From Mollicutes bacterium (GTDB taxonomy: Bacteria > Bacillota_I > Bacilli_A > RF39 > UBA660): DNA of 57,381 nt. The DNA is taken from positions 1 to 57,381 of the forward strand of contig JAAZKW010000050.1 of assembly GCA_012799635.1 (NCBI GenBank), written 5' to 3'. Of the stretch, positions 11,652 to 41,198 are shown piece by piece (position 1 is the first letter of the stretch; each line of letters starts with the position of its first letter). The position numbers and the translations under genes are program-made. A model generated the notes under the pieces. It saw only the letters and a program-made list of their open reading frames with translations. It was not told the origin of the DNA and made no database searches.

Positions 11652-12050
11652 CTAGAATATAATTCTGATAATTTTTTTAATAATTCTTTCTCTATTATAA
11701 TAAAAGACAACCTTTACAATTTCATTTTTAATAAAAGGATTTCCCTTTATTTTTAATGAATATATTTGATAGTTATTATTTTCTTTTTCTAATAATTCTG
11801 ATACTTGTATTATACTATATTTCATAATTTTAGAGTTATATTTAAAAAATTGTGCCCTTTTTATAATGTCAGAGTTTTCTATTAGGACACTAACGTTTAA
11901 ATTTACTCCATCATAGTTAGCATACATCTCATAAGTATCATAACATTTTACAAAAGAAAGCAATACCAACGTTATAAAAAAAACAATAAATGTTATAATA
12001 ATAAAAAATAATTTAGCATATTTAATATTTTTAATATAATTATAATTCAC
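11652..12050 (-). CDS. Small membrane-anchored accessory protein of the exporter locus
   Basis: A 132-residue protein started by GTG (12048-12050) after GGAGTCAAATA and overlapping the exporter stop by 11 nt. It has one transmembrane segment (about residues 13-34), then an extracytoplasmic domain of about 95 residues ending in a basic tail (NRERIIKKIIRIIF). I recognise no family. Position between a C39 ABC exporter and its peptides suggests an accessory export protein, much shorter than the usual HlyD-like one, or an immunity protein. Confidence 0.6.
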   Translation of the reverse strand: MNYNYIKNIKYAKLFFIIITFIVFFITLVLLSFVKCYDTYEMYANYDGVNLNVSVLIENSDIIKRAQFFKYNSKIMKYSIIQVSELLEKENNNYQIYSLKIKGNPFIKNEIVKVVFYYNRERIIKKIIRIIF

Positions 12051-14094
12051 TATTTGACTCCAAATTAATTATTCTTTCAAATAAATTATCTTGATTTTTA
12101 TGTGTTACATATATTAAAGTTTTATCTTTAAAATGGGTAATAATGTTTTCAATTATTCTTCTTTCTGTAATATAATCTGTTTCGCTTAAAGCTTCATCTA
12201 TTATTAATATGTTTCTATTTCTAAGTAATGCCCTAGCCAAAACAATTCTTTGCCTTTCACCTCCCGATATATTTTGAGAATAATTATCAATTATTTCTTC
12301 ATATCTAAAAGTCTTTTTGCTAACAATTTCATCAATCAAACATATTTTACAAACTATATCAAACAAATCATTTGCTTTTTCATAAAATAAAATATTGTTT
12401 TTTATTGAATCTGAATATAATTTATCATTTTGACCAACATAAGTAATATGTTTTCTTAAAGTATAAATATTATAATCCCTAATATTTTTACCATTTATAC
12501 TTATAAGTCCCTTACAAGGAACATTAATTCCGCAAAGCATTTTACAAAGAGTACTTTTCCCACACCCACTTTTACCTTTAATCATAATCTTCGAACCATT
12601 TAAAATCTCTAAATTAAAATTTTTGAACATAATATGATAGTTGTCATAAGAAAAAGTAACATTTTTATAAAGAATATTACCTATAACAAATTTTTCATCC
12701 TTAACAATATTCTCTTCTTCAAGATCTATAAAACCCATAATCTTATTAAAAGAAGTTTTAATAAAGTTATATTTAATTAATATTAAAGGTAGTGTTTTAA
12801 TTGGATAAGTTATATAGAAAGAAAAATTATTAAAGGTAATAAAGTCAACAAATGACAATTGTTTTTTATATATTAATATAAAACCAAATACACTAATTAA
12901 ATAAGTGCCCACTTCTACAAACAACTTTTTTAAAAACATATTGGTATTTACTAAATTAACAAATAAATAATTATCATATAAATAATTGCATGATAATTGT
13001 TCAATATCATTCAATACTGCTTGAGTATTATTTAAATTTTTAATGCTTTCCAACATATTAATATTATCAATAATCCGATTATTTAATTTAATTTGTAAAT
13101 TATTATTATGCTTTGTTCTTTCATAAAGATACTTATTTTCAATAATAGTATATATGAAATAAATAATTACAATTAAAACTAATAATAATGCCATTTTATA
13201 ATTTATAAAACACAAAATTATAAAGATACTAAATGCAAGAAAGTAATCAAGAAACACACTTATTAATATTTCTCCAAATAAATCTTTAATATTCTTTATT
13301 TCGTTAAATCGAGAAAGAATTTCCCCTGAGTTATGACTTTTAATTGTCTTGAAAGGAAGATTAATTAAATGAGAAAGAAAATCTCTAATGATATATATAT
13401 CAATATTTTTATTTAAATGATTAATATAATAATTCCTAATATATTCATAAAATATTTTAAAAGTAATATTAATTAAAAATATATAAAATAATATTTTTAT
13501 TAAATTAAAATCACTTACAAACAGATATTTAAATATCACTTTTATAAAGATATTGTTTATTATTGTAAAAATTATTATAAGAAAACTGCATAATACAACA
13601 CTTATAAATATTTTTTTGTTATCTTTTATAATAGCTGTTATAAGACTATAAATACTACTACCTTTACTTAAATAAATAACATGATCAGTTGGACTAAATT
13701 CAATGACGATACCGGTAAAAACATCATTAAATGAATCTATTTCCATTTTATTTATACCTTTAGCAGGATCCATTATCGTTACGTACTTACTATTATAGCC
13801 ATATACACAAACATAATGAGTATAACCATTATTATTTTTAATGTATGCAATAACAGGTAACTTGGTATGGGAAATGTTTTTATCTAGATATTTTTTTGCA
13901 ATTGCTCCTAAACCATACTTTTTAGATGCTTCCACAAGATGGTATATTGAAGTTCCCTTTGTTGTAGTAAAAGCATCATCTCTAATTCTTTCAATTGATA
14001 CATAACCCCCATGATAACGAATAATTGATTGCAAACAACAAGGACCACAATCTTTTGTATCCTTTTGATTCACAACTATAATTTTCTTTCTCAA
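12040..14094 (-). CDS. Bacteriocin-processing ABC exporter with C39 peptidase
   Basis: A 684-residue peptidase-containing ABC transporter (PCAT). I start at TTG 14094 because AAAGGAGG lies 4 nt before it; the upstream extension begins at another TTG without an RBS. The C39 domain has QKDTKDCGPCCLQ (catalytic Cys16), THYVCVYGYN (His93) and IMDPAKG (Asp109). A six-helix membrane domain spans about residues 140-440. The nucleotide-binding domain has GKSGCGKST, the signature ISGGERQR and Walker B ILIIDEA. It should cut leaders after Gly-Gly and export the mature peptides. Its likely substrates are the two peptides encoded just downstream. Confidence 0.93.
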   Translation of the reverse strand: MRKKIIVVNQKDTKDCGPCCLQSIIRYHGGYVSIERIRDDAFTTTKGTSIYHLVEASKKYGLGAIAKKYLDKNISHTKLPVIAYIKNNNGYTHYVCVYGYNSKYVTIMDPAKGINKMEIDSFNDVFTGIVIEFSPTDHVIYLSKGSSIYSLITAIIKDNKKIFISVVLCSFLIIIFTIINNIFIKVIFKYLFVSDFNLIKILFYIFLINITFKIFYEYIRNYYINHLNKNIDIYIIRDFLSHLINLPFKTIKSHNSGEILSRFNEIKNIKDLFGEILISVFLDYFLAFSIFIILCFINYKMALLLVLIVIIYFIYTIIENKYLYERTKHNNNLQIKLNNRIIDNINMLESIKNLNNTQAVLNDIEQLSCNYLYDNYLFVNLVNTNMFLKKLFVEVGTYLISVFGFILIYKKQLSFVDFITFNNFSFYITYPIKTLPLILIKYNFIKTSFNKIMGFIDLEEENIVKDEKFVIGNILYKNVTFSYDNYHIMFKNFNLEILNGSKIMIKGKSGCGKSTLCKMLCGINVPCKGLISINGKNIRDYNIYTLRKHITYVGQNDKLYSDSIKNNILFYEKANDLFDIVCKICLIDEIVSKKTFRYEEIIDNYSQNISGGERQRIVLARALLRNRNILIIDEALSETDYITERRIIENIITHFKDKTLIYVTHKNQDNLFERIINLESNSEL

Positions 14095-14154
14095 ATTCCC
14101 TCCTTTCACACCATATATATCAAAATAAAAGTCATTATCCTTTTTTCGAGACAA

Positions 14155-14402: not shown

Positions 14403-15077
14403 TTATTTATTATACTTAAATATTGTTATTTTGTGTTTTATTCTCTTATTTTTAATTTTATTAGCTATTTCTTCACCATATATAACTTCAAAACACATTT
14501 TAGCTTCTTCTAATGTTTTAAACTCGAAATAAGTATCGATTTGTTTATCTATAATAAAACTATTGAGTAATATCCATTTATTGTAGTCTTTTGTTCTATT
14601 ATCTTTATTTCTATTTCTTATTTCTTCAAATTCACTGTCAGTATCATTTTCTATTAATATGATAATACCATCTTCTTTTAGTACTCTTTTTAATTCATTT
14701 AAGCATTTATTTCTTTCTTCTAAATCTGTAATTGTTCCAAGTACCCATGATGATATTATTAAATCTACTGAATTATCTTTTAAATTTATACTAGATAAAT
14801 TTGAACAAATAAACTTTGATGTGCCCTTTTTTGATTTATTAATTGCTCTTTCTAACTGCTTATCGGATAAGTCTATACCTATATACTCTTTAGATTTAGT
14901 TTCTAATACACTTAGAAATTTCCCCGTCCCACATCCTGCATCTAAAACTATTTTATCTTTAGAAATATTTTCTAAATAATTTCTTACTTTTCCTTCCGCA
15001 TCTTCTCTAATACTAAATATTTCATAGTAATTATTTTTATCATAATAAGCACTAGATTCCTTTAATAGGTTTTTCAT
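14403..15077 (-). CDS. Class I SAM-dependent methyltransferase
   Basis: A 224-residue Rossmann-fold methyltransferase. Motif I is VLDAGCGTGKFLSVLE, the acidic motif II IGIDLSDKQLERA, and motif IV region VDLIISSWVLGTI. The substrate is unknown. It is the last gene of the overlapping operon: its ATG lies 26 nt inside the ATP-grasp gene and follows AAAGGATAAAATAA. Context suggests it methylates the product of that pathway, but a metabolite or an rRNA base are equally possible on sequence alone. Confidence 0.85.
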   Translation of the reverse strand: MKNLLKESSAYYDKNNYYEIFSIREDAEGKVRNYLENISKDKIVLDAGCGTGKFLSVLETKSKEYIGIDLSDKQLERAINKSKKGTSKFICSNLSSINLKDNSVDLIISSWVLGTITDLEERNKCLNELKRVLKEDGIIILIENDTDSEFEEIRNRNKDNRTKDYNKWILLNSFIIDKQIDTYFEFKTLEEAKMCFEVIYGEEIANKIKNKRIKHKITIFKYNK

Positions 15078-16092
15078 TTATTTTATCCTTTTCATAGTCT
15101 TTAGTTTCCGGATAAATCATATCTACCATATATTTTGCAATATTTTGTGATTTACCAATTGCAGGTCTAAAATGCATATGTATGCCTGGAACAGTGTTTA
15201 TTTCTATTATTCTATAACTATTTTCATCTTGCTTTTCATCTATGTTATTAGTCATAAAATCAATTCCTACATAAGGAAGTCCAGGAAATGAATTTAATAC
15301 TCTCATTCCTATGTCTATTACACTTGAATGTGTTTTATCTGTATAGTCTTCACATACTCCACCCATTGCAACATTGGAATTAGGTCTTAAATACACTTTT
15401 TCCCCATTAAAAGGTATATAATTCATACTTATTCCATTTGTTTCTAAATACTTGTACATCTCATTATCCACTAAGATTTCACATAGTGCATTAGTTCTAG
15501 GGTTCATTCTATTATAGTTTTCTTCTTCTATTAATTCTTTAATAGTTTTAGCACCATCTCCAAATACATGAGCGGGATTACGAAGTAAAACTGCATAATC
15601 ACCATTTTTTGTTATAAATATTCTATATTCTTGTGCTTCATAATATTCTTCAACTATTATTTTCGTTAGTTCTCCTCTATGTTCTATAATGCTTTTTATA
15701 GCATTTTCAACATCGTCCTCTGTCTTTAAATTTATATATACATCATATCCATGAGAACCAAATACTGGTTTAATTACAACAGGACAATTTAAAATTTTAA
15801 ATGCTTTTTTTATATAATCAATATCTTTAGCTAGAAATGTTTCACCTATTGGAACTGATATTCCGTTAATCATTAAATTTCTCTTCGTAAAACCTTTATC
15901 TCCTGCAAGTATTGAAACATTATAAGGCATAATAGAAGAATCTCTATCGCATATTAACTCGTCGTGTCCATTATATGAAGTCTTTATTAATTCTCTTTCC
16001 GCATCTATTACTTCTACGCTGATTCCTCTTTTAAGCATTTCGTATATAAGAATTTTCTGGTTAGAATGCAAATCTTCATATATGTTTTTCAT
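15052..16092 (-). CDS. ATP-grasp ligase (CphA/GshF-like)
   Basis: A 346-residue ATP-grasp carboxylate-amine ligase. Visible elements: GDKGFTKRNLM (dK..t), VVIKPVFGSHGYDVYI (ATP-binding Lys and Gly loop), VEEYYEAQEYRIFI, FGDGAKTIKELI, VYLRPNSNVAMGG, and YVGIDFMTN with IIEINTVPGIHMHF, which supplies the metal-binding Glu/Asn. The pattern matches the C-terminal ligase of bifunctional glutathione synthetase and cyanophycin synthetase, so an amide bond between a carboxylate and an amine is the expected product. Its ATG overlaps the stop of the repeat protein (TAATG). Confidence 0.88.
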   Translation of the reverse strand: MKNIYEDLHSNQKILIYEMLKRGISVEVIDAERELIKTSYNGHDELICDRDSSIMPYNVSILAGDKGFTKRNLMINGISVPIGETFLAKDIDYIKKAFKILNCPVVIKPVFGSHGYDVYINLKTEDDVENAIKSIIEHRGELTKIIVEEYYEAQEYRIFITKNGDYAVLLRNPAHVFGDGAKTIKELIEEENYNRMNPRTNALCEILVDNEMYKYLETNGISMNYIPFNGEKVYLRPNSNVAMGGVCEDYTDKTHSSVIDIGMRVLNSFPGLPYVGIDFMTNNIDEKQDENSYRIIEINTVPGIHMHFRPAIGKSQNIAKYMVDMIYPETKDYEKDKINEKPIKGI

Positions 16093-16733
16093 TATCTATG
16101 AAATCCCTCTTCAAGTATAATTCTCGCACGATCAAGTTCTTCAATATCTCCTTTTAATTCTTCAATTTCTTCTTGTTCTGCAAGCAGTTGTATTAATTTT
16201 TTCAATCTTTCATCTCGTTCTGCTCGAAGCAAAATAACTTCTGCGCTTTGTATTTGATTGCCATCTGGATTATCTTTACTTATCCTTTCAATTAAACTAT
16301 CAATATCATCTAAAGAATTATATCTTGATGTTCGGTTTGGTCTGCCACTTTGCTCTTGCAACCATTTTTCATATGCTGCATGCATTTCACCTTGACTACT
16401 TAACCCACCGCGAACCATCCAAGGGTTCGTTTTTAACCAATCAGCATAAGAAAGCCCTCTACTTTCAGAACTAATCCTTGATTCTCCACTTTCTGCATGC
16501 ATTTCACCTTGACTACTTAACCCACCGCTAACAACACAAGGTTTCGTTTTTAACCAATCAGCATAAGAAAGCCCTCTACTTTCAGAACTAATCCTTGATT
16601 CTCCACTTTCAGAATTATTTGGATTAGCTTTTCTATAGTCACCACGACTCTCACCGATATAATTGCTCTCTGATGGATATCCGCCACAACTTCCCCCGTA
16701 ATTACTTTCACTTCTTCCATAATTACTTTCCAT
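16092..16733 (-). CDS. Tandem-repeat Ser/Gly/Glu-rich protein, candidate peptide substrate
   Basis: About 213 residues; no family recognised. The N-terminal part has three ESNY-containing segments rich in Ser, Gly, Glu and Tyr. The middle has two tandem 39-residue repeats of the form ESGESRISSESRGLSYADWL followed by KT[KN]P..V.GGLSSQGEMHA. A third, degenerate YEKWLQEQSG follows, and the C-terminus is a charged helix (QSAEVILLRAERDERLKKL). GGAGG lies 3 nt before the ATG at 16739 and 9 nt before the ATG at 16733; I prefer the latter. Its position between a DUF3419-like enzyme and an ATP-grasp ligase suggests a ribosomal substrate of the operon's enzymes (inference). Confidence 0.6.
   Translation of the reverse strand: MESNYGRSESNYGGSCGGYPSESNYIGESRGDYRKANPNNSESGESRISSESRGLSYADWLKTKPCVVSGGLSSQGEMHAESGESRISSESRGLSYADWLKTNPWMVRGGLSSQGEMHAAYEKWLQEQSGRPNRTSRYNSLDDIDSLIERISKDNPDGNQIQSAEVILLRAERDERLKKLIQLLAEQEEIEELKGDIEELDRARIILEEGFHR
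16377..16610 (-). repeat. Two tandem 117-bp (39-codon) repeats
   Basis: Units at 16377-16493 and 16494-16610 are almost identical in DNA. The differences cluster within about 18 bases that encode KPCVVS in one copy and NPWMVR in the other. Identity on both sides indicates recent duplication; the local divergence is not random scatter. Confidence 0.9.
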
Positions 16734-17553
16734 CTTCATTTGCCTCCTTTATAAATACTGCATCTTCAGTATCTTTGTCATAATTAAGTAATGCACTTTT
16801 AATTCTTCTAATTTTAAATTTTCCAAAACAATTAGTTACCTTTTCGAGATCATCTATTATACTTCTTTTTGTTTTACTATTTATATCATAAATATAAGCA
16901 AAATAGATATATCTTACTTTTTGTAAAAACCCGAAAATTAAATTCTTATAATTGTCTAAACATCTATCTTTATAAAAAGCTTCAATATAATCAGAAATAT
17001 TCGATAAAAACATATAATCATAATTTTCATCAATTTTTAAGTCTTTTAAATTTGAACGTATAAATCGTATTTTAAGTAGACTTAATCTATTTTTTATTAT
17101 ATCATAATTTTCTTTATTTAGATATAAATTACATTCAATTTTATTTTTAATATTAAAGTGTTTTATATTAAATAAATTTGAATTTCTCATTTTTTTACCA
17201 TTATTATTATTTTTTAATAATTCTTTTAACCAAAAATCTTTGCTTTCTTGATCCATTTTTATTCTTTTTACTATTTCATAATCAAAAGACTTATCTGTAT
17301 CATAAAGTAAAAAGTCTAAAAAGTCATCATACGATAATTCTTTAATAGCGCATAATTTTAAATCCATATAATATTTTGTTAACGGATTTATATCAAAAGT
17401 TGTAATATCTAAACAACCTTTTAATATAGCATTAATTATATGGTCTGATGAACCAGTAACTGTAATAATTTTCTTATCAGTTAAATCTAAATCCTCCATA
17501 TATCCAGCAATATTTTCGGTTGTAAATAGATATATGCTACTGAATTTTCCCAT
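16723..17553 (-). CDS. DUF3419/BtaA-like SAM-dependent protein
   Basis: A 276-residue protein. The N-terminal half has IITVTGSSDHIINAILKGC and TTFDINPLTKYYMDLKLCAI. That is the SAM-binding pattern of DUF3419 proteins such as BtaA, which transfer the 3-amino-3-carboxypropyl group of SAM rather than a methyl. The C-terminal half (DYMFLSNISDYIEAF) fits the same fold. The start follows AAGGGAAGATGTT and overlaps the preceding gene by 17 nt. Substrate unknown; context suggests a peptide or small molecule made by this operon rather than a lipid. Confidence 0.6.
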   Translation of the reverse strand: MGKFSSIYLFTTENIAGYMEDLDLTDKKIITVTGSSDHIINAILKGCLDITTFDINPLTKYYMDLKLCAIKELSYDDFLDFLLYDTDKSFDYEIVKRIKMDQESKDFWLKELLKNNNNGKKMRNSNLFNIKHFNIKNKIECNLYLNKENYDIIKNRLSLLKIRFIRSNLKDLKIDENYDYMFLSNISDYIEAFYKDRCLDNYKNLIFGFLQKVRYIYFAYIYDINSKTKRSIIDDLEKVTNCFGKFKIRRIKSALLNYDKDTEDAVFIKEANEDGK

Positions 17554-19000
17554 AACATCTTCCCTTTATCTTTTTTGATACAAACGTTGATAATTTACTA
17601 TCCTTTAATATATCCTTAAATTTATTATTCCTTAAAGATCTAATTGAAACACAAGATTTATCGTTTTCATAAACCCATGGACAAGGGCTTACTTGCCCTA
17701 AATTATTTATATATATAAACTTGTCGCCTCCGGGACATATACTAACATAATTAGGTTGCCTTCCAAAATTATAGTTAATATTTATTTTCTTATTATATTT
17801 TTTATTTAAGACTTTAATAGTAGATATTAACTTATCATTAGATATTGTTTTTACGAAAGCTTTACTTTGACCTTCAACTGGTTCCATTATTGAGAATATT
17901 ATTTCATCTGCATTATAATCAATCGAACTATTAATTAAATCCTCTAAAGTTTTTTCATTATTGATATGAATTACTGACCCAATTCTTACTTTGTTCTTTG
18001 ATTTTTTTAAACATTCCAATCCTCTAATTGTTCTATCATAAGTGTTTTTTCCTCTAACAGATTCATGTGCTTCTTTATTTCCATCTAAACTAACATGAAT
18101 CATTTTTAATGGTATCTTATTTAATTCTTTCACAATATCTACAGTTATTAAAGATGCATTAGTTGAAATATCTGTTATTAGATTTTTTGACGCATATTTT
18201 AAAATGTCTAATATGTCTTTACGAATAAACGGTTCTCCTCCCGTTATTTTTAAATGTTTAAAGCCATTTTTAACTAATTCATCTATAACATGAAAGCACT
18301 CTTCTGTAGTTAATTCTTCTTTTACAGCACTATTCGTCTTACAAGAAAATATACAATATGAACATCCATAATTGCATTTATGAGTTATCTCCCATATTGC
18401 TTTTCCCTCATTATTAGGTAAGGTAAACTTACACTCGATCTTATTAATAAATTCTTCTACTTTTATAACTGATTCTTCAATATTATAATCATTATTTATA
18501 ACTATTACTTTTTCACTTTCTAGTACCTTGCTATCAATTTTTTGTAACCCAAATCTCTTCAAAATATCTTGTTTTGGTAAATCACTTTTACTTAATCTAT
18601 TTAATCTTTCTTCCACACTTGTATCAATGTATATTACTTTATCAAAATAACCCAATAGCCTGTCCTTTAATATTAATGCCCAATCTACAATAATCGTTTT
18701 ATCTTTAATATTTGAAATGTAAGAAAATAAATATTTATATAGTATATCTTTATATTTAGACATATTTTCTTCATTATCATATATATATTTATTTAATATA
18801 GATGAATCTATATTATCAAACTCAGATAATCCTATAATAGATTCCTTTAATCTATTAACATAGTCTAAATCATTAAATAAATTTCTTCTAAAATTATCTA
18901 CATCTATATATTCATAATCTGGATTAAGCTCAACTATTTTTTTTGAAATAGTAGATTTTCCAGATGACATACCTCCGGTTATTCCTATTAACCTATTCAT
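17537..19000 (-). CDS. Fusion: dephospho-CoA-kinase-like domain plus radical SAM domain
   Basis: A 487-residue two-domain protein. Residues 1-190 look like a CoaE-type P-loop kinase: LIGITGGMSSGKST (P-loop 9-16), IDVDNFRR, YIDTSVEERLNRLSKSD and INNDYN. Residues 195-487 are a radical SAM enzyme: CNYGCSYC (Cys209, 213, 216), KITGGEPFIRKDI, HVSLDGNKEAHESVRG, and a SPASM/twitch-like C-terminus with ICPGG and SPCPW. The start is the ATG at 19000, with GGGAGG 7 nt upstream; it overlaps the upstream gene's stop by 8 nt (ATGAATAG). I know of no standard family with this architecture. Radical SAM-SPASM proteins often modify ribosomal peptides. Confidence 0.85.
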   Translation of the reverse strand: MNRLIGITGGMSSGKSTISKKIVELNPDYEYIDVDNFRRNLFNDLDYVNRLKESIIGLSEFDNIDSSILNKYIYDNEENMSKYKDILYKYLFSYISNIKDKTIIVDWALILKDRLLGYFDKVIYIDTSVEERLNRLSKSDLPKQDILKRFGLQKIDSKVLESEKVIVINNDYNIEESVIKVEEFINKIECKFTLPNNEGKAIWEITHKCNYGCSYCIFSCKTNSAVKEELTTEECFHVIDELVKNGFKHLKITGGEPFIRKDILDILKYASKNLITDISTNASLITVDIVKELNKIPLKMIHVSLDGNKEAHESVRGKNTYDRTIRGLECLKKSKNKVRIGSVIHINNEKTLEDLINSSIDYNADEIIFSIMEPVEGQSKAFVKTISNDKLISTIKVLNKKYNKKININYNFGRQPNYVSICPGGDKFIYINNLGQVSPCPWVYENDKSCVSIRSLRNNKFKDILKDSKLSTFVSKKIKGRCYGKIQ

Positions 19001-19802
19001 ACCAAAACCTCCCATATTTTATAGGGACAAATGACACTATCTTCTTACTATTACATGTATTCCAATCAATATTATCAATAATAATATCATAGCCTTCATC
19101 TTTTAATTCATCTATTAATTTTGCTATATCTTCACTAATCTCGTTATTTAATACATTGGGCTTATTGTTATGTATATATTGTGATTTGTTTAAAACATTT
19201 TTATTTTCATAAAAAACTGGTGTTCCTACTCTATAAGATAAATAATGTAATCTAATCTCGTGAGGTTTTATAGTTAATAATAAATTTTTTGTTTTTATAA
19301 TGTCTTCCTTTTTAGAACCTGGATAATCTAATATAAAACTTGTCCTTACTCTATACCCTATTTTCTTTACCTCAAATATTACTTCTTTAATATACTCAAT
19401 ATTCATATTTTTATTCATTTTGCTTAAAACAAGTTCACTTCCAGACTCAATTCCAAAATGAATCCATCTAAAGCCAACCTTATACATCTCCTGTATCATG
19501 TATTTATCATAACACTCTATACTACAAAGAACTCCAAATAAACACTTTATGTTTTTTTCTTTTATTTTTTTACATATTTTTAACATTCTCTTTTTATCCA
19601 CAGTAGCATTATCATCTAAAAATAATATTTTCTTGGCATTAAATTTACTTACAAGCATTTCTATTTCACTTATAACATCATATACTCCTTTACCACTCCA
19701 GTTACCAAAATAATAAGGTGTATTACAAAACTTACATCTTCCAATACAACCCCTAGAAGTTACCATTGTTCTAGTATCCATATATTTATCTATTTCAACC
19801 AT
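18993..19802 (-). CDS. B12-type radical SAM protein, catalytic half (downstream of a frameshift)
   Basis: The radical SAM half of a cobalamin-dependent type enzyme. SRGCIGRCKFC provides the CxxxCxxC cluster (Cys19, 23, 26 from the ATG at 19802). LFLDDNAT, HFGIESGSELVLSKMNKN and TSFILDYPGSKKEDI are the following core motifs. The frame stays open upstream of this ATG to about 19908 and encodes KLPIPDRSM, the standard linker between B12-binding and radical SAM domains. The ATG is therefore internal, and this gene and 19889-20323 are one gene with a -1 shift at an A7 run (19901-19907). Confidence 0.8.
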   Translation of the reverse strand: MVEIDKYMDTRTMVTSRGCIGRCKFCNTPYYFGNWSGKGVYDVISEIEMLVSKFNAKKILFLDDNATVDKKRMLKICKKIKEKNIKCLFGVLCSIECYDKYMIQEMYKVGFRWIHFGIESGSELVLSKMNKNMNIEYIKEVIFEVKKIGYRVRTSFILDYPGSKKEDIIKTKNLLLTIKPHEIRLHYLSYRVGTPVFYENKNVLNKSQYIHNNKPNVLNNEISEDIAKLIDELKDEGYDIIIDNIDWNTCNSKKIVSFVPIKYGRFWYE

Positions 19803-19888
19803 ACTTCTATCAGGAATAGGTAATTTATCAAAATTATTTTCTATATGTTTATTATTAGTTATTATTATTTCATTATTGTTTTTAATAA

Positions 19889-20323
19889 TTAAGTTAGGTA
19901 TTTTTTTAATCTATCACTATCATATATACTATCTATTACTTCGTTAATAATCGGTTCTGCCAAGCCGCGAATAACTACATCTATACCATTATCTATAAAT
20001 TTTTGATAAAAATAAGTTGAAGTTTTTCCAATTATAATAATTTTTGTCTCTTTATCTATGTTTCTAACTATTTCAAATATATTATTCATTGCCAAAGATG
20101 TATGAAGTGGTATTTGATAATCATATACAAAAATAACTACATTTTTATCTGTTAAAAATATGTTTATATTATTATCTAGCCTATTAACATCCATATCTAA
20201 GACTTTTACTTTTTTAAACTTTTCACTAATTACTGTGGCAATCTGTAATACATCAATTGGTTCTGCTAATATAGTTAAATTAGTAAATGGTTTGTTTGGC
20301 GGATTAACAACTAATATATTCAT
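19889..20323 (-). CDS. B12-binding domain of a split radical SAM protein
   Basis: A 144-residue N-terminal cobalamin-binding domain of the B12-radical SAM type: ILVVNPPNKPFTNLT, VKVLDMDVNRLD, VVIFVYDYQIPLHTS and VVIRGLAEPIINEVI. It ends early at TAA 19889-19891, just after DRLKKYLT. Shifting -1 on the preceding A AAA AAA heptamer continues the protein through IPNLIIKNNNEIIITNN into the radical SAM half. The start follows AGAAAGGAAACAT and is the first gene of the operon. Confidence 0.8.
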   Translation of the reverse strand: MNILVVNPPNKPFTNLTILAEPIDVLQIATVISEKFKKVKVLDMDVNRLDNNINIFLTDKNVVIFVYDYQIPLHTSLAMNNIFEIVRNIDKETKIIIIGKTSTYFYQKFIDNGIDVVIRGLAEPIINEVIDSIYDSDRLKKYLT

Positions 20324-32835: not shown

Positions 32836-35800
32836 CTATTTAATAATAAAGTATTTCTCTACAATACCTATTTCAGTAACATTATCATACAATACAAATT
32901 CAAGTTTATAAGTACCTATCTCTAATCCAGACTTAAGCTGAATTGCTAAATTATTTTCCGCTTGAGGGCTTGATATTGCTATATAATCATTTGGATTAGA
33001 CGATGGTATTAATGGTAATGAAGTATAGTCTTGTAAATCAACAAGTTCAAAATTGGTATCATAAATTGTATCATATTTTCTGCGATACAATCTTAAATGA
33101 ATATTTGGTTGTAATAACCCAGAATTATATTGAATAAAATAATTAAGCGTATTTAAATTTTTTAAATTTAAACCAGTTGTTCCATCAATAATCATTTCTT
33201 GAGGATCAACAGTAACATCTAATCCATAGATTTCATTAATAACATTAATATCAAACTCTTTCTTTGCAGGCGTTGTATTACCATAGTAAAGCCCATCAGG
33301 TGAACCAAAAGCTTCGACGACGACTTTATATGCACCCGTAGCTAGTTTGCTTGTTCCAGTATAAACATTTACCCACGTTTTAGCACTACCTACCTTATCT
33401 GCAATTTTAACTCTAATAGTTCCATCAATATTCGGATAATAATTAACTCCTGCAATTTTATAATAAAGACCTAATAAAGACGTACCACTAACAATTTGTC
33501 CTTGACTATTCTTTAAATAAATCTTTAATCCCATTTTATAATCTAAGAAACGAGTATCATAAACGGTACTTCCGCCAACTTTTGTTTGAGTATATACCGT
33601 ATCTAAATCAAGTAGAAAAAACTCTCCCGCATAAATTTCATTTTTACTAATAGTTCCAGTAACATTTACTGACGCATCATGATCTGTATATATATTATAT
33701 ACCATATTTGGTTGCTGAACACCAAGAACATTAATTATTGTATGCCCATTACTATCAAGCAGTTCAAATAATAGTGAATTGCCTAATGCGGTTGATGAAA
33801 TTGTAGTATCTTCAAAATCAATAATGAAAATAAATTCTTCAGCACTATAATCATCAATCGCATTATAATATTGAGCATTCTTAACTGCATCATCATAATA
33901 AGCTCCACTATTATATGCTCCCATTACTTCAAACATCGATAAATTATATCGAATATCTCCATATGTAGCCAATTGGTTGATTGCATCTTGAACGTCTTGT
34001 GCCGTTATAACGTGATAATAATATTCTGGCAAACTAATATCACTTAAATCAATCATTGTAATTTTGGTATTTTCAGGTAAAACATAATTTGAAATTAATG
34101 CTCTATGATATCCTTGTTGATATAAATTTGTTCCATCAGCAAACAAGGAGAAATAAGTACTAAATGACGATTTTGAGCTTATCTTTACATTTGTCGTAGC
34201 AAATAAATCATATTTTCTTCCTTCAGTTATGGCACCTTCATAGTCATTTGTTGTATAAAGAGCTCTAGATAAATTAACATTAACAACTAATCTTTCGGTT
34301 TCATTCGTTAAATCATCAATTCTAGTAATTGCCATAATAATTATTTTAACAGTACCCATACTACCTGCAGTACCTATATTTTTAGAGTGAATTAAATAGA
34401 AAAGTAATGATGGGATATCTGTAGTATTATCACCAACATAGGTTCTTGTTCCAATAATAGGAGTTGTACTACTTGTTAAAAAGCCAGTAGTTCCTGAAGT
34501 AAGCCAACCAGTATTACTTGATTCCATTTGTAAAGCCATTACGCTATCAGCAATAGTAGAACTTGCAGCAACACGACTTACATTATTTTTATCAACAAGT
34601 TCTATCCCAGCAGCAATACCCGTATAGTCAAAACCTAGTATTTCAAATGAAGTGTTTTCTTGTGAAAAGTCATTAAAAGCCAGTTCCGTTGTTCCTAATG
34701 TTGAATACTTCGATGCTACTAAATCAATATCATATTCAATAACTTTTTGACCAACAACCCACATATACATATCCGAATCTGGAGGCGTTGGCTCGATATA
34801 TCCAATTATAGCAGTTGAATCATCCTCATTAATAGTATTAGTATAAAAACCATCTACTGTTATATCGTGATTTAATTTATGACTTCCAGCTACATAAGAA
34901 CCTGAGTCAATTATATCTCCCCAATCAAGTAAATCCCCAAAGTTGTGTTTATCATATATTCCAACACTTACATCCCCACCACCAGTTACTTTATAAAGTC
35001 CAAAGAAGCTCATTCCTTCAACATCTCCAAATATAGTAACGTTTTGGTTTTTAGCAATGTTTAATGCTTTTGCATTATCGGCTAAAGCGTAAATTCTATT
35101 ATCCACATTTTTTACAATAGTACCACTGTCTTCATCAATGGTAACAGTAGCAAGATTATTATATTGATCAACACTTCTAAACTTTTCAACTAAGTTAAAC
35201 CCTGTTTGAAAGAACATATTTGAATTATTTTTTAATACCAATGTTTTAATTCTTGATAACGTAAATAAAACATCAGAATATTCATTAACTCTATCTGTTG
35301 CTCCGATTAATTGAATTGAACTATTATCTATTGTTAAAGTATCAGTTCTTTGAATAGATATATTCGTTTTAGGATTTGCATATGTTCCATAATCTTTAAT
35401 ACTAATAACACTAGTACCGCCAGATGATGAAGCATTACCACTTCCAAAGATAGATCCTTCAATATCAAAGTTATCATAATTATTACCATTAATATCTATT
35501 ACAATTGCATTAGTAACACTAATAAATGAATAGTCGTATATTTCTGAACCTGATGCGTTAGCTTCACCACCACCAAAGACAGTTCCTTTAATTAAGATAT
35601 CGCCTTTTACTACTGTAGGACCAGTTACAACGCTTGCACCAATGTTTACATCCGCTTCGCCATAAACTTTAGAAGTATTTGCTCCACCATAGACATTACC
35701 ATAAATTAAGCCACCTGCAATATTAACAACAGCTTGTGAATTATTGGTTGATTCTTGTCCTGTAACAGCAGCGTTTCCTCCACCAAATACTGAACAAGTA

Positions 35801-38800
35801 TTTAAAACAGTACATGATGTAGTTCCAACAACTGTGTCGCCACTTACCGTTATATTTGTATTTAATTTTACAGTAGCAGTTTCACCATTTCCACCACCAT
35901 AAGCACTGCCGTAAATAGTACCATCTTTGATATTGACAAAAGTATTGCCATTAACAGCACCTTGATTTCCGCCGCCATAAAGATTTGAAACAATTATACC
36001 TCCTGTTACATCAAGAGTAGTATCTGTGGTAACAGCAGCTTGATTTCCTCCACCATATAAATTAGTGATAGTTCCGCCAGTTACTAATGTCTCAGCAGCA
36101 CTTGCCACCGCCTCATTTCCACCACCATATAAAGAAGTAATTGTTCCACCATTTACTTCAACAGATGTATTTGTAACACTTGCTTTGTTACCACCACCAT
36201 ATAAGTTAGTAATTGTTCCATTAGTTATTTCGACATTAGTATTTCCAGAAATTGCTTGATTTCCTCCACCATAAACAGATCCTAATGTACCATTTAAAAT
36301 ATCCACATTAGTGGTGGTAGTTTGACCACCAGCATTATTACCACCATAAACTTGATTAATTGTGCCATGTTCTACAATAACATTTGAAGTTGTTACAGTA
36401 CCAAGTTGATTAGAACCACCATATAAATTAGTAATATTTATAGTATTACTTCCTCCGGTAAGTTTATGAGTCTTAACATTTGTTGTAGTAGCTCCAGCTT
36501 GATTTCCTCCAGCAAAGACATTCGTCATTGTTCCATTATATATATCAACATTACTTGTTGTAACACTAGCCTGATTACCACCACCATAAACTTGATTAAT
36601 CGTACCACCATTTACACTTAAATTAGTAATACTTGCTGTTGCTTCATTTCCGCCACCAAAAACCCTTGTAATATTTCCATCATTAATTGTTACATAAGTA
36701 TTAGTAGTTACAGCTTTATTACCACCACCATATATGTTATCTGCTGTTGTTCCATTAAAAGTTACATTGCCTGTAACAGTTGTACCACCAGCATTATTAC
36801 CACCATATATATTTGCAAAGCTTCCTTGATTTATTAGAACATTAGAGGTAGTTACTGTTCCTGATTGATTAGAACCACCATAGATATCTGTTACAGTAAT
36901 ATTTTTTGTAGCATCTTGATATGCCCTAACATTTGTTGTTGTAACACCAGCTTGGTTGCCGCCACCATAAATACTAGGAATTGTCCCCTCAGTATTATAA
37001 ATATTTACATTGGTAGTTGTTGTCGCAACAAGATTTCCGCCACCATAAACAGATCCTAAAATAGTTGCTCCATTTAAATTAACGTTTGTCTCTTGACAAG
37101 TTCCTCCAACGTTATTACCACCATAGATATTTGTAACTTGTCCTGTATTAATCGTTATATTCGTATCAAGAACTGTTCCTGATTGATTAGAACCACCATA
37201 AATTTCATTACAAGTTGAACCATCTAAATAAACTTTTGTAGTATCGATTGAAGTGTTTTTCCCCCCACCAAAAGCAGTACCTACAATACCACCATTTAAA
37301 TGAACTTCAACATTTCCTACAGGTTTACCATTTTGATCAAAACCACCATAAACATATGCCGTTGTACCACCGTTAATATCTACTCTTATATTCCCTTTTA
37401 CATATGGAACAGTTGAACTATTTCCTTTAGCACCGCCAAAAACTTCTCCGGTAATTGTTCCATTATTTACAGTTACAGTTACCTGTTTGTTATTTGCGGC
37501 TTCACCTGTTGTAGTAGCATTAACAGTTCCATAAGCTGAGCCACCATAAACATTCCCAGAAACATTAGGCCCAGAAGTAGAATTACCAATGGTAACAGTA
37601 ACATCATCTCTAACAAAAGTTGCTGCTCCTTCACCACCACCATAAACATGATTGACATTTCCACCATAAACATTAACCTTAGTTGTTCCATAAACCGTTC
37701 CCGTGATGTTAGAGCCACCATAGATACCTCCAGATATATTTCCACCATAAACATTTACATTAATGTCAGCATCAATATTATAAAAGGTTAACCCATTAGC
37801 GCTATGGCTATAATTACCAGCACCATTTCGATTTGCTGCTCCATAAACAGTACCTAAAATATCACCACCATATATATTTACTTCCGTTACGGTTGGTGAT
37901 GAAGATGCTGCATTACTATAACCGGTAGCTCCATAGTTTCCACCACCATATACACTTTTTCGAACTAAAGCATCTCCATTAATAACAATATAAGAGTTTG
38001 TTACTGATCCAACCCCAACTGATGAGCTATTACCATTTCCAGCACCTAAAACATTACCAGCAGTAACTTCCGAAATTGGTTCTAAAGTTCCTGCATTAAC
38101 TAAATTCTCATCGCCAACAATAGCATGCCCGCCAACATAAACATAAGAACTGCCATTTAAAGTACCTGCTGCTGTCGATCCTCCTGTATCACTACCTTGA
38201 ATACCATTTGATCCACCAAAAATACTATAATTAACAATACCTCCAGTATGTTGAATAATTCGATTACCATAAGTTGCCGAACGACCAGCTCCTCCAATAA
38301 CAATATCAATGCTACCCCCTTTAATATACATATAGGTATCATTATAATATTCCATACTTGAAGCTGAAAGTGGACCACCAATTAAATTATAAATCCAGCC
38401 ACCTTCAATAGTAGCTGTTCTTGATGAATAATGGGTTCCACCATTTAATCCCCCAACATATATACCAGAGATATAATCTGATTTGTTAGTTCCAAATTCA
38501 CCGCTTTTAACTGTTAAATTCAAAGCACTATCAGTTACGCCACCTGGTGAATAAATAGAACTTCCCCAAGCTCCTGCGGCGGTTGACCTTACCTCAAGAT
38601 TAGTGTTAATATTATTTACCCGATCATAATCATTTCCATAAGTTCCTAGCACTTTAAAAGTATAACTATAACTTCCCCCTGACGCTGTTGAAAGCCCAAG
38701 CGAATTATAATAGCCAGACTCAACAATAAAGGTGTATTTTCCATAATTACCCGAAGATGAGGAATAAGCACCAATCATCGTTGAAAAGGTTGCTAGATTA

Positions 38801-41172
38801 CCACTTTCTTTAACAATACCTCTTCCTATCTTTACATTATTCCATCTTCCATATAAAGAAAGCCCATTTATTGGAGTGATCGAAGAGTTTGACAAATATG
38901 TATTTCTTGAATAAAATCTCATCTCTTCAATTCTTATATCATTATAAATATTTAAATTATTTCTTATTTGCCAATATGTTGAATTTTTATAGCTGACGCC
39001 ATTGTTTATTGCCGTAATTGTACAAGGGTTTGGTTGCGATGAAAAATTGCTAGTAAGATTAGCTCTTAGAACAATAATATTGGTATCTCTAGTTATAAAA
39101 TAATAATATGTTACTCCTGAAACAGCTACCTCGACGGTACCATTAGCATCAGTATTTTTAATATATTCTAAATAAACACAACCATTTGAATTATTACAAG
39201 TACCACTTGTAAATTCAACATTATTAAAATCAAAATAGCCAACAAGTGAAACTCCATATGGAATTCTTATTTCACGATAAAAACCTCCTACTGGATCACC
39301 TAAAGCAACTTCATATCTTGTTTCAGTACTAACTGGCTGTGGATACACTACTGAGAACGTATAGCCATACCAATAACTATATGATCTAGAATAATAAGTA
39401 AGGCTAGGATCGAAAATATTACTTAAAACAGCTGTAAAAAAGGTACAAGAGCTTGAATTACAAGTTGAGCCACCCAGATCACTACGTCCACCTTGATAAT
39501 AAGAATTTGATGGGAATGTTTCACCATAACTAATAGTTTCTTGATAATAATAGCCTGTTAAATTATAAACAACAATCGTTCCATTAGCAGCTCTTAGAGT
39601 ATAACCAGTATACATCTGATTCATTACATTAGTCCACTGATTATTATTAGTAATATTCACTGCATTAGCATATGTCCACGAGGTATAAAAATCGATTATA
39701 ATTGGTACTGGAACTCCACTTTCATATGTAACAGGAACTTTTACGCTTCTTACATAAGTATCAATATCTAATGTTATCTTTGCTCCTTCATATAAAGTAG
39801 TCCACCCATTAAATGCTTTATTATTTGGTCTATTTGCCCAAGGATTATCTATTAAATCAAATTCTATATAATCATCGGTAAGGTCTGGCGTATTATTAGT
39901 ATTTACTTCATAAACCTTATAATAAACATATTTATTTTGTAGTTCTGTTAATGAGACATAACCCACATGTCCTAAACTATTATCAACATGATGCTGGTAA
40001 TCTTCGCCATTATAAGTTACCTGTACCGTTACTAAATTCGATGAATTATATACATTTTTATTAACTCTTGTTGGTAAAGTGCCATCAGTGTTATAAGTAA
40101 AGTTTAGTCCTTCAAAATAATCTAAATCAGCTTGATAATCATTAACATATACGGTACTACCACTAATACCACTATCATGAAAATCAATTACTGGTGGATC
40201 TTCTTCTTCTGGTTCTCCAACGCCAGTATTAAGAAGCCTTATTGTATTATTTCTATGAGCCCAAGTTAAAGAAGAATTTAAGTTAAACTTTTCAATTACA
40301 GCACTTACTGAATAACTATTATCAAAAGTAATTATTTGACCAGTTTTAGTAAAAGTATAAACATTACTAAAAGAAGTTGAGTTATTATAAATTAAAGCAT
40401 AACCATTATTTTTATGAATTATATAACTAATATTTGAACCATTATAATTATTTAATAAATTACCACCATTAGAACTAGTATTATCTACATCAGAGAAAAT
40501 ATTAGAAATATTATTTGCTCCTTGATCATTTACAACAAGGCCTGCAACATTATGATAATAATTTACATTATCTGTTATATTATAATTTATTGCTGATAAA
40601 GATATGTTGTGTATTGTTGAGCTAGATGCGCTTATAGCAAGTGTTGCAACATTACTATTTTCAAGGCCAGATGTAATACTTGCTCCAATAATATTCATAT
40701 TACTTACATTGGCATTATTTAACTCATAAAACAAAGCATAATGACATACACTAGTATATGGGTCTATTACTTCAAGACCACAGTCATTAATTCTTAAATT
40801 AGAAATTGTATAACCATTTCCATCAAAATTACCACTAAAAATTATCCCATAATTAATATAGGAAAAATTTAAATTATTTAAATCAATATTATTTGATAAA
40901 ACATAATATTTATTATAATAGCTACTATAATTTGGACCATTAAGTAAAGAATAAAAATAAGCAAGTTCTGAGCCCGTTGATATTTCATAAGGACTATTAA
41001 CAGTTCCATTTCCTGATGTAAAAGATGTTGCTACACTTCCATCCCAAACCGAAGAAGTTGTTTTCTCAGTAAGCGTTGGATAAAAGACAAAAAAGAAAAC
41101 AGCCAACAATATCATTACGCCGCTTATAATAAGACGATGTTTATTAAAATACTTTCCTATTTTCTTCAGCAT
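32836..41172 (-). CDS. Giant YGGGN-repeat surface protein (2778 aa)
   Basis: From ATG 41172 (GGAG 8 nt upstream). One N-terminal TM helix (about residues 13-33) anchors or exports the protein. Residues about 45-320 include a GLUG-like stretch (FSGNFDGNGYTISNLRI). The region of about 1000-1860 has dozens of roughly 20-residue units of the form NxYGGGNxAxVTxTxVxIxGGTI, which should fold as a beta-solenoid. About 1900-2778 looks like several beta-sandwich domains. No LPXTG, C-terminal TM or choline-binding motif was seen. It has its own promoter but lies beside the SipW/TasA operon, so I infer a long extracellular adhesin or fibre component. Confidence 0.8.
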   Translation of the reverse strand: MLKKIGKYFNKHRLIISGVMILLAVFFFVFYPTLTEKTTSSVWDGSVATSFTSGNGTVNSPYEISTGSELAYFYSLLNGPNYSSYYNKYYVLSNNIDLNNLNFSYINYGIIFSGNFDGNGYTISNLRINDCGLEVIDPYTSVCHYALFYELNNANVSNMNIIGASITSGLENSNVATLAISASSSTIHNISLSAINYNITDNVNYYHNVAGLVVNDQGANNISNIFSDVDNTSSNGGNLLNNYNGSNISYIIHKNNGYALIYNNSTSFSNVYTFTKTGQIITFDNSYSVSAVIEKFNLNSSLTWAHRNNTIRLLNTGVGEPEEEDPPVIDFHDSGISGSTVYVNDYQADLDYFEGLNFTYNTDGTLPTRVNKNVYNSSNLVTVQVTYNGEDYQHHVDNSLGHVGYVSLTELQNKYVYYKVYEVNTNNTPDLTDDYIEFDLIDNPWANRPNNKAFNGWTTLYEGAKITLDIDTYVRSVKVPVTYESGVPVPIIIDFYTSWTYANAVNITNNNQWTNVMNQMYTGYTLRAANGTIVVYNLTGYYYQETISYGETFPSNSYYQGGRSDLGGSTCNSSSCTFFTAVLSNIFDPSLTYYSRSYSYWYGYTFSVVYPQPVSTETRYEVALGDPVGGFYREIRIPYGVSLVGYFDFNNVEFTSGTCNNSNGCVYLEYIKNTDANGTVEVAVSGVTYYYFITRDTNIIVLRANLTSNFSSQPNPCTITAINNGVSYKNSTYWQIRNNLNIYNDIRIEEMRFYSRNTYLSNSSITPINGLSLYGRWNNVKIGRGIVKESGNLATFSTMIGAYSSSSGNYGKYTFIVESGYYNSLGLSTASGGSYSYTFKVLGTYGNDYDRVNNINTNLEVRSTAAGAWGSSIYSPGGVTDSALNLTVKSGEFGTNKSDYISGIYVGGLNGGTHYSSRTATIEGGWIYNLIGGPLSASSMEYYNDTYMYIKGGSIDIVIGGAGRSATYGNRIIQHTGGIVNYSIFGGSNGIQGSDTGGSTAAGTLNGSSYVYVGGHAIVGDENLVNAGTLEPISEVTAGNVLGAGNGNSSSVGVGSVTNSYIVINGDALVRKSVYGGGNYGATGYSNAASSSPTVTEVNIYGGDILGTVYGAANRNGAGNYSHSANGLTFYNIDADINVNVYGGNISGGIYGGSNITGTVYGTTKVNVYGGNVNHVYGGGEGAATFVRDDVTVTIGNSTSGPNVSGNVYGGSAYGTVNATTTGEAANNKQVTVTVNNGTITGEVFGGAKGNSSTVPYVKGNIRVDINGGTTAYVYGGFDQNGKPVGNVEVHLNGGIVGTAFGGGKNTSIDTTKVYLDGSTCNEIYGGSNQSGTVLDTNITINTGQVTNIYGGNNVGGTCQETNVNLNGATILGSVYGGGNLVATTTTNVNIYNTEGTIPSIYGGGNQAGVTTTNVRAYQDATKNITVTDIYGGSNQSGTVTTSNVLINQGSFANIYGGNNAGGTTVTGNVTFNGTTADNIYGGGNKAVTTNTYVTINDGNITRVFGGGNEATASITNLSVNGGTINQVYGGGNQASVTTSNVDIYNGTMTNVFAGGNQAGATTTNVKTHKLTGGSNTINITNLYGGSNQLGTVTTSNVIVEHGTINQVYGGNNAGGQTTTTNVDILNGTLGSVYGGGNQAISGNTNVEITNGTITNLYGGGNKASVTNTSVEVNGGTITSLYGGGNEAVASAAETLVTGGTITNLYGGGNQAAVTTDTTLDVTGGIIVSNLYGGGNQGAVNGNTFVNIKDGTIYGSAYGGGNGETATVKLNTNITVSGDTVVGTTSCTVLNTCSVFGGGNAAVTGQESTNNSQAVVNIAGGLIYGNVYGGANTSKVYGEADVNIGASVVTGPTVVKGDILIKGTVFGGGEANASGSEIYDYSFISVTNAIVIDINGNNYDNFDIEGSIFGSGNASSSGGTSVISIKDYGTYANPKTNISIQRTDTLTIDNSSIQLIGATDRVNEYSDVLFTLSRIKTLVLKNNSNMFFQTGFNLVEKFRSVDQYNNLATVTIDEDSGTIVKNVDNRIYALADNAKALNIAKNQNVTIFGDVEGMSFFGLYKVTGGGDVSVGIYDKHNFGDLLDWGDIIDSGSYVAGSHKLNHDITVDGFYTNTINEDDSTAIIGYIEPTPPDSDMYMWVVGQKVIEYDIDLVASKYSTLGTTELAFNDFSQENTSFEILGFDYTGIAAGIELVDKNNVSRVAASSTIADSVMALQMESSNTGWLTSGTTGFLTSSTTPIIGTRTYVGDNTTDIPSLLFYLIHSKNIGTAGSMGTVKIIIMAITRIDDLTNETERLVVNVNLSRALYTTNDYEGAITEGRKYDLFATTNVKISSKSSFSTYFSLFADGTNLYQQGYHRALISNYVLPENTKITMIDLSDISLPEYYYHVITAQDVQDAINQLATYGDIRYNLSMFEVMGAYNSGAYYDDAVKNAQYYNAIDDYSAEEFIFIIDFEDTTISSTALGNSLLFELLDSNGHTIINVLGVQQPNMVYNIYTDHDASVNVTGTISKNEIYAGEFFLLDLDTVYTQTKVGGSTVYDTRFLDYKMGLKIYLKNSQGQIVSGTSLLGLYYKIAGVNYYPNIDGTIRVKIADKVGSAKTWVNVYTGTSKLATGAYKVVVEAFGSPDGLYYGNTTPAKKEFDINVINEIYGLDVTVDPQEMIIDGTTGLNLKNLNTLNYFIQYNSGLLQPNIHLRLYRRKYDTIYDTNFELVDLQDYTSLPLIPSSNPNDYIAISSPQAENNLAIQLKSGLEIGTYKLEFVLYDNVTEIGIVEKYFIIK
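35580..37780 (-). repeat. Degenerate YGGGN coding repeats (about 60 bp)
   Basis: About 30-40 imperfect units whose minus-strand sense is TAYGGTGGTGGNAA..., each encoding YGGGN/YGGSN/YGGNN plus a VxI-N-GTI strand. Units differ at third positions and at surface residues, so this is an old, diversified array with some near-duplicate blocks (for example the YGGSNQSGTV units). Confidence 0.85.
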
Positions 41173-41198
41173 CCTTAACACTCCATATTATTATATAG

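Follow-up and report, generated by a model that had tools for sequence, protein, structure and literature searches.

A six-gene bacterial cassette that probably encodes a ribosomal peptide pathway of an undescribed class

The stretch of DNA analysed here (hereafter the window) covers 57,381 nucleotides of contig JAAZKW010000050.1, from GenBank assembly GCA_012799635.1 of a Mollicutes bacterium. Its minus strand carries a cassette of six genes which, read from position 20323 to 14403, encode a B12-type radical S-adenosylmethionine (SAM) enzyme, a kinase-radical SAM fusion, a DUF3419 enzyme, a small protein with repeated Glu-Ser-Arg (ESR) motifs, an ATP-grasp ligase and a methyltransferase. We consider it probable that this cassette makes a ribosomally synthesized and post-translationally modified peptide (RiPP) of an undescribed class, with the ESR protein as its precursor. 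A small protein that diverges fast but keeps one short motif and a conserved, recognition-like segment, together with an unchanging set of modifying enzymes, has the look of a RiPP with several cores. No described RiPP class or small-molecule pathway was matched in Pfam, NCBIfam, PHROGs, PADLOC, the PDB sequences and the open papers searched, in agreement with an earlier note on this DNA, made from the sequence alone, which knew of no class with this set. Likewise, no RiPP system with a DUF3419 enzyme, an aminocarboxypropyl group or a cyanophycin-type ligase was found in the open literature, subscription papers lying outside the search.

Organization and conservation of the cassette

The earlier note had named six genes in this region, and all of them were found on the minus strand when the coordinates were checked base by base, the first being split by a frameshift. 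The genes are the following:

18993..20323, minus strand: B12-binding-type radical SAM gene, split into open reading frames (ORFs) 20323-19889 and 19802-18993
17537..19000, minus strand: CoaE-like P-loop kinase fused to radical SAM/SPASM (Pfam CoaE 7e-12, Radical_SAM 1.6e-24, SPASM above its cut-off)
16723..17553, minus strand: DUF3419 (BtaA-type) class I SAM-dependent transferase, 276 residues (Pfam DUF3419 1.6e-13)
16092..16739, minus strand: ESR-motif protein, proposed precursor, 215 residues, with 5 ESR and 10 ES sites
15052..16092, minus strand: ATP-grasp ligase of the cyanophycin synthetase/GshAB group (NCBIfam cya_phycin_syn 7e-69)
14403..15077, minus strand: class I methyltransferase (Pfam Methyltransf_11 6e-22)

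Every junction had been said to overlap by 1-26 nt, and the measured overlaps were 8, 17, 17, 1 and 26 nt with the kinase ORF starting at position 19000; the first would be 23 nt rather than 8 if this ORF began at an earlier ATG (19015), but the start at 19000 is more likely. Tight or overlapping junctions were likewise observed in the other relatives measured. Scores above the Pfam gathering cut-offs were obtained for radical SAM, for the CoaE-like kinase together with radical SAM and SPASM, for DUF3419, for ATP-grasp and for the methyltransferase; the B12-binding domain gave a weak match, the sole one not above its cut-off.

A profile of the ATP-grasp protein was run against family-, order- and class-level sets (386, 385 and 395 genomes, respectively) and against 84,980 species genomes, and it retrieved twelve further loci (L075, L076, L077, L078 (= L047), L079 (= L048), L080 (= L087), L081 (= L086), L082 (= L049), L083, L084, L085 and L088), which with the window make 13 loci in 13 genomes. 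The gene order was identical at all twelve as far as the contigs extend, the cassettes of L082 and L088 being cut by contig ends. The methyltransferase gene was conserved at 12 of the 13 loci (partial at L082); L084 lacks it, and the next protein encoded there is amidase-like and unrelated. At L079, L080 and L081 the kinase and the radical SAM enzyme are separate ORFs, and therefore they represent two functional units. The earlier note had suggested a search for co-occurrence, and the ATP-grasp and kinase/radical SAM subfamilies were found together in 8 of 8 genomes when the 386 family genomes were searched. The same note had taken the same enzyme order without a small protein as the observation that would speak against a RiPP-like logic; instead, the slot between the DUF3419 and ATP-grasp genes was filled by a small ESR protein, beside modifying enzymes, at all 13 loci, which supports that logic. 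No flanking gene was common to most cassette loci, and hence the six genes are the unit. The surroundings of the cassette differ from genus to genus, and it was absent from the other genomes of the window's own genus among those searched.

Several candidates for a wider distribution were rejected. The ATP-grasp matches in other families of the class (E values of 1e-52 to 1e-56) lie in frames of 630-790 residues, which are GshAB-like in size, and do not belong to this subfamily. One extra radical SAM match in the family genomes (G074) is not a variant cassette: its neighbourhood (L116, G074:C16, 5833-9951) has neither precursor nor ATP-grasp gene and is a different small cluster of this family, in which a pair of radical SAM/SPASM-like genes is accompanied by genes resembling those of glutamine synthetase and a sugar kinase. 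DUF3419 was discarded as a cassette marker because the family is common outside the cassette: DUF3419-like genes occur in 71 of 193 genomes of the bacterial family, mostly outside it. At two loci (L063, G028:C25:92000-111000; L064, G167:C7:36500-56400) diverged DUF3419-like genes, about 15-20 in number, form a head-to-tail array, at L063 with a glyceraldehyde-3-phosphate dehydrogenase-like gene before and a phosphoglycerate kinase-like gene after the array, both named from sequence by eye. A viral or phage origin was rejected, since the ESR and ATP-grasp proteins had no relatives in viral contigs and the ESR protein none in phage records; two weak viral matches were both to the kinase part only. 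A plasmid origin was rejected as well, the DUF3419 protein having given no match in plasmids.

The ESR motif

The small proteins have 87-215 residues (111 in L083, counted from the first standard start). They are hard to align and diverge fast, yet each carries 3-9 copies of Glu-Ser-Arg. The small protein is at most 46% identical to that of the window, versus 59-77% for the ATP-grasp protein across loci, and in one pair the ratio of nonsynonymous to synonymous substitution rates (dN/dS) was about 0.5 for the small protein versus 0.13-0.25 for the enzymes. Ser or Gly precedes 53 of the 61 ESR copies; successive copies lie 5 or 6 residues apart in 19 intervals, and they are usually paired. The motif density was 29.7 per 1000 residues in the small proteins versus 0.07 in the other ORFs of the same loci, and of the 350 ORFs with 60 or more residues at these loci, the small proteins alone carried at least two copies. 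When the small proteins were shuffled, 0.15-0.5 copies were found on average, as against the 3-9 observed. The Arg is less conserved than Glu-Ser, with the variants ESN, ESS, ESH and ESA. ESRW forms the C-terminus in 7 of 11 aligned precursors and also in L083, and several others begin a few residues from ESR. Between 0 and 3 Cys residues are present per precursor, none of them conserved, and 5 of the 13 precursors are Cys-free.

The following regions were delimited in the window's ESR protein:

16449..16739, minus strand: proposed core, residues 1-97, with the E-S pairs ESNYGRSESN, SESNYIGESR and, twice, ESGESRISSESR
16377..16610, minus strand: 117-bp (39-residue) tandem duplication, with E-S sites at residues 44/47/53 and 83/86/92
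16095..16322, minus strand: conserved helical segment, proposed leader/follower recognition region (alignment, profile and AlphaFold)

The earlier note had described a tandem-repeat protein. The window does have this repeat, but what is conserved across the loci is the ESR motif together with the helical segment; the repeat is a local 117-bp duplication, and its 39-residue unit is single in L075, the window's nearest relative.

An invariant Glu-Ser next to an ATP-grasp ligase would also suit a reusable carrier, of the LysW amino-group type or of the pearlin type, in which the ligase loads an amino acid on the Glu or on a terminus, the cargo is modified and a small molecule is released. The termini may indeed matter, since most precursors have ESRW as their last residues or an ESR close to the first, and an aminocarboxypropyl-type enzyme suits the building of an amino acid, with the carboxymethyl chemistry of 3-thiaglutamate as a precedent (PMC10491745). 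However, 3-9 sites of variable number and spacing on fast-diverging tails are unlike a carrier with one site, no carrier-protein model of Pfam or NCBIfam was matched, and the set includes no release hydrolase or protease. We therefore regard a carrier as unlikely.

The helical segment

The second conserved element of the small proteins is a helical segment of about 80 residues with the pattern ID-x-LI-E ... R-x-x-KLxELRxL ... ENDELDxAI. It was present in 12 of the 13 proteins, L082 having a short remnant only, and when a profile of it was searched in the 8 cassette genomes, 7 gave a single match each, which was the copy in the cassette; the genome of L082, where the segment is short, was missed. 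The segment follows the ESR tract in the window, L075, L085 and L088, precedes it in L079, L080, L081, L083 and L084, and lies between two ESR tracts in L076, L077 and L078. AlphaFold placed helices at residues 143-156 and 166-214 of the window's protein; their predicted local distance difference test score (pLDDT) mostly exceeded 70 and rose to more than 90 across residues 171-210. The E-S sites fall in a stretch, residues 1-93, most of which was predicted to be disordered (pLDDT about 40). The ESR protein looks like a multi-core RiPP precursor with a distinct, movable recognition segment.

As modelled, the helical segment could also mediate complex formation, and the ESR protein might then be a scaffold or regulator which holds the enzymes together without being their substrate, the product being a small molecule unrelated to it. 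This role would leave the strict paired conservation of E-S(-R) in disordered, otherwise changing tails without a reason, and we find it very unlikely.

At L083 (8545-8999) the open frame of the ESR protein extends upstream beyond the first ATG and the helical segment is intact; translation probably starts at an ACG preceded by a ribosome-binding site rather than at an ATG.

The enzymes downstream of the B12 radical SAM gene

The P-loop kinase domain of the fusion belongs to the dephospho-CoA kinase family. When the PDB sequences were searched with the L075 homologue, the sactipeptide maturase SkfB was the nearest solved relative of the radical SAM/SPASM enzyme; in NCBIfam the radical SAM part lies near StsB and AhbD, and overall its closest relatives are peptide maturases and cofactor enzymes of the SPASM type. 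The PADLOC viperin-kinase and pVip profiles matched the fusion at 4e-11 and 4e-21, respectively, which raised an alternative in which the fusion is a viperin-kinase and the operon an antiviral nucleotide-analogue system. In domain-wise tests this identity was rejected: the kinase part of the window's protein alone did not match the viperin-kinase model, the radical SAM part has SPASM above or near the cut-off, and SPASM maturases scored 108 and 105 bits versus 74 for viperin. Furthermore, no viperin match was found in the other five window proteins tested, and an antiviral role is hardly credible.

The DUF3419 protein scored 51.1 bits against a Pfam gathering score of 28.2. Its model reached a pLDDT of 92, and a fold search pointed only to the general SAM-methyltransferase (Rossmann-like) fold; no relative was found in the PDB sequence search. 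By analogy with the characterised family member BtaA, this enzyme possibly transfers a 3-amino-3-carboxypropyl group. The best models for the ATP-grasp protein were cyanophycin synthetase, GshAB and NAGGN synthetase, its score being far below the equivalog cut-off of the cya_phycin_syn model, and residues D278, E297 and N299 were invariant at all loci.

The B12 radical SAM gene

The B12-radical SAM gene of the earlier note is present, but not as a single open frame: two ORFs can be joined only by a -1 shift at the following site.

19901..19907, minus strand: A7 tract with -1 shift, GAT AGA TTA AAA AAA TAC

Read-through with this shift yields a protein of 443 residues, which aligns end to end with the intact 447-residue protein of L075 (63% identity); its dN/dS against L075 is about 0.22, similar to that of the neighbour genes. 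Intact homologues of 444-474 residues were found at ten other loci, with CxxxCxxC kept in all ten, and a C-terminal Cys and Tyr that are otherwise invariant are altered in the window; in the sets of L075 and L085 every frame is intact. The protein resembles the B12 radical SAM methylases, among them PhpK and the glutamine C-methyltransferase of methyl-CoM reductase, and also ApyD, with all scores far below the model cut-offs.

The frame broken at A7 and the changed C-terminal Cys and Tyr would be explained if the window's cassette were a decaying remnant, non-functional here and working in relatives, for which the RiPP reading would still hold. The rest of the gene is still constrained, as its dN/dS indicates, and slippage on A7 or an assembly error could give one protein again. 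We consider such decay in the window a real possibility, though one clearly short of an even chance.

A proposed RiPP pathway

From the observed synteny, co-occurrence, motif and fold we infer how, at which residues and in which order the ESR protein might be modified, and what product and role would result. The helical segment would be the enzyme recognition element, and the disordered tracts of paired [S/G]-E-S-R the cores; the enzymes would dock on the segment, whether N-terminal or not, and then act on E-S-R sites in either tail. Because the Glu-Ser pair is conserved, the Glu carboxylate (for the ATP-grasp enzyme) and the Ser hydroxyl (for the kinase and the DUF3419 enzyme) are the proposed sites of chemistry. 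In the likeliest assignment, the kinase and/or the DUF3419 enzyme may place a phosphate or a 3-amino-3-carboxypropyl group on the Ser hydroxyl, and the GshAB/CphA-type ATP-grasp enzyme may activate the Glu side-chain carboxylate for coupling with a hydroxyl or an amine. A radical C-H modification or a cross-link within or between neighbouring ESR sites might be introduced by the SPASM radical SAM enzyme, with the Arg or the backbone as possible targets, and methyl groups would be added by the methyltransferase and by the B12-type radical SAM protein. Our tentative proposal, to which we give slightly less than an even chance, is that the movable segment steers the two radical SAM enzymes, the kinase, the aminocarboxypropyl-type transferase and the ligase to the paired sites in both tails, so that a multiply cross-linked or SAM-decorated peptide is formed, with aminocarboxypropyl side chains that would be new to RiPPs. 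Movement of a recognition segment from end to end between relatives would be unusual for a RiPP; in graspetide engineering the leader works at either end (PMC13003496).

Some observations weigh against a RiPP. The precursor is long for this kind of peptide (87-215 residues), its helical segment varies in position and is recognisable only as a short remnant at L082, and no RRE (PqqD-like) domain was found in the window's enzymes. In the cassette flanks, to which the search was confined, neither a leader protease nor an exporter was common to the loci; leader removal and export may be encoded elsewhere in the genome. In addition, the B12 radical SAM gene is frameshifted, so that the window's own copy may be decaying, and the cassette is known from metagenome-assembled genomes only.

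If the proposal is correct, the cassette represents a RiPP class whose enzyme set is unlike that of any described class among those found in the searches, and a six-gene investment would be notable in the genomes of about 1 Mb of a poorly cultured host family, whose members are described as tiny-genome gut-type bacteria. The cassette would then be a test bed for the function of a kinase-SPASM radical SAM fusion, for whether DUF3419 enzymes place aminocarboxypropyl groups on peptides, and for whether mid-protein or C-terminal leaders are used in nature, as engineering has demonstrated them in graspetides (PMC13003496).

Neighbouring genes

One gene lies close to the cassette on its downstream side:

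12040..14154, minus strand: C39 peptidase/ABC exporter, 250 bp downstream of the cassette (Pfam Peptidase_C39 2e-33)

No equivalent full-length gene was found beside the other cassettes, and the exporter was rejected as a cassette member because it is not conserved; it is a local neighbour and probably lies outside the cassette. No obvious substrate gene adjoins it. Downstream of the cassette at L076 (10815-12481) and L083 (10826-12432), five tandem paralogues of about 110 residues are followed by NUDIX-like genes, as identified by eye. Elsewhere in the window, the 2781-residue ORF at 32836-41181 gave no match in Pfam.

Comparison with known systems

Sactipeptides (SKF) and ranthipeptides share with the cassette a SPASM-type radical SAM maturase, SkfB being the closest solved sequence relative. 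Unlike them, the cassette has a kinase fusion and an ATP-grasp enzyme, its precursors lack conserved Cys donors, and no RRE was seen in it; since the precursors hold 0-3 Cys, thioethers are not its main product. A B12-type radical SAM enzyme also occurs in the aminopyruvatide (ApyD) and other B12 radical SAM RiPP systems, and that of the cassette is moderately similar to ApyD, with a score far below the ApyD model cut-off; in contrast to ApyD systems, the cassette is without a P450 and a peptide-binding RRE domain. The DUF3419 protein has the same Pfam domain and SAM-dependent fold as the betaine-lipid enzyme BtaA, but it has 276 residues and no lipid context. The 3-thiaglutamate (pearlin) pathway resembles the proposed role in that unusual amino-acid chemistry takes place on a ribosomal peptide (PMC10491745), whereas the cassette enzymes are different and neither a protease nor a tRNA-dependent ligase was seen among them. 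Unlike viperin (pVip), the radical SAM enzyme of the cassette carries SPASM, and the window's kinase domain on its own has no viperin-kinase match. Graspetides (microviridins, fuscimiditide) differ from the cassette in their ligase, since its ATP-grasp enzyme belongs to the cyanophycin synthetase/GshAB group and matched no graspetide ligase model of NCBIfam, and the cassette adds two radical SAM enzymes, a kinase and a DUF3419 enzyme. They share with it an ATP-grasp ligase, in some cases a methyltransferase, acidic and hydroxyl residues in a repeated core, and a long leader which, when engineered, is functional at either end (PMC13003496).

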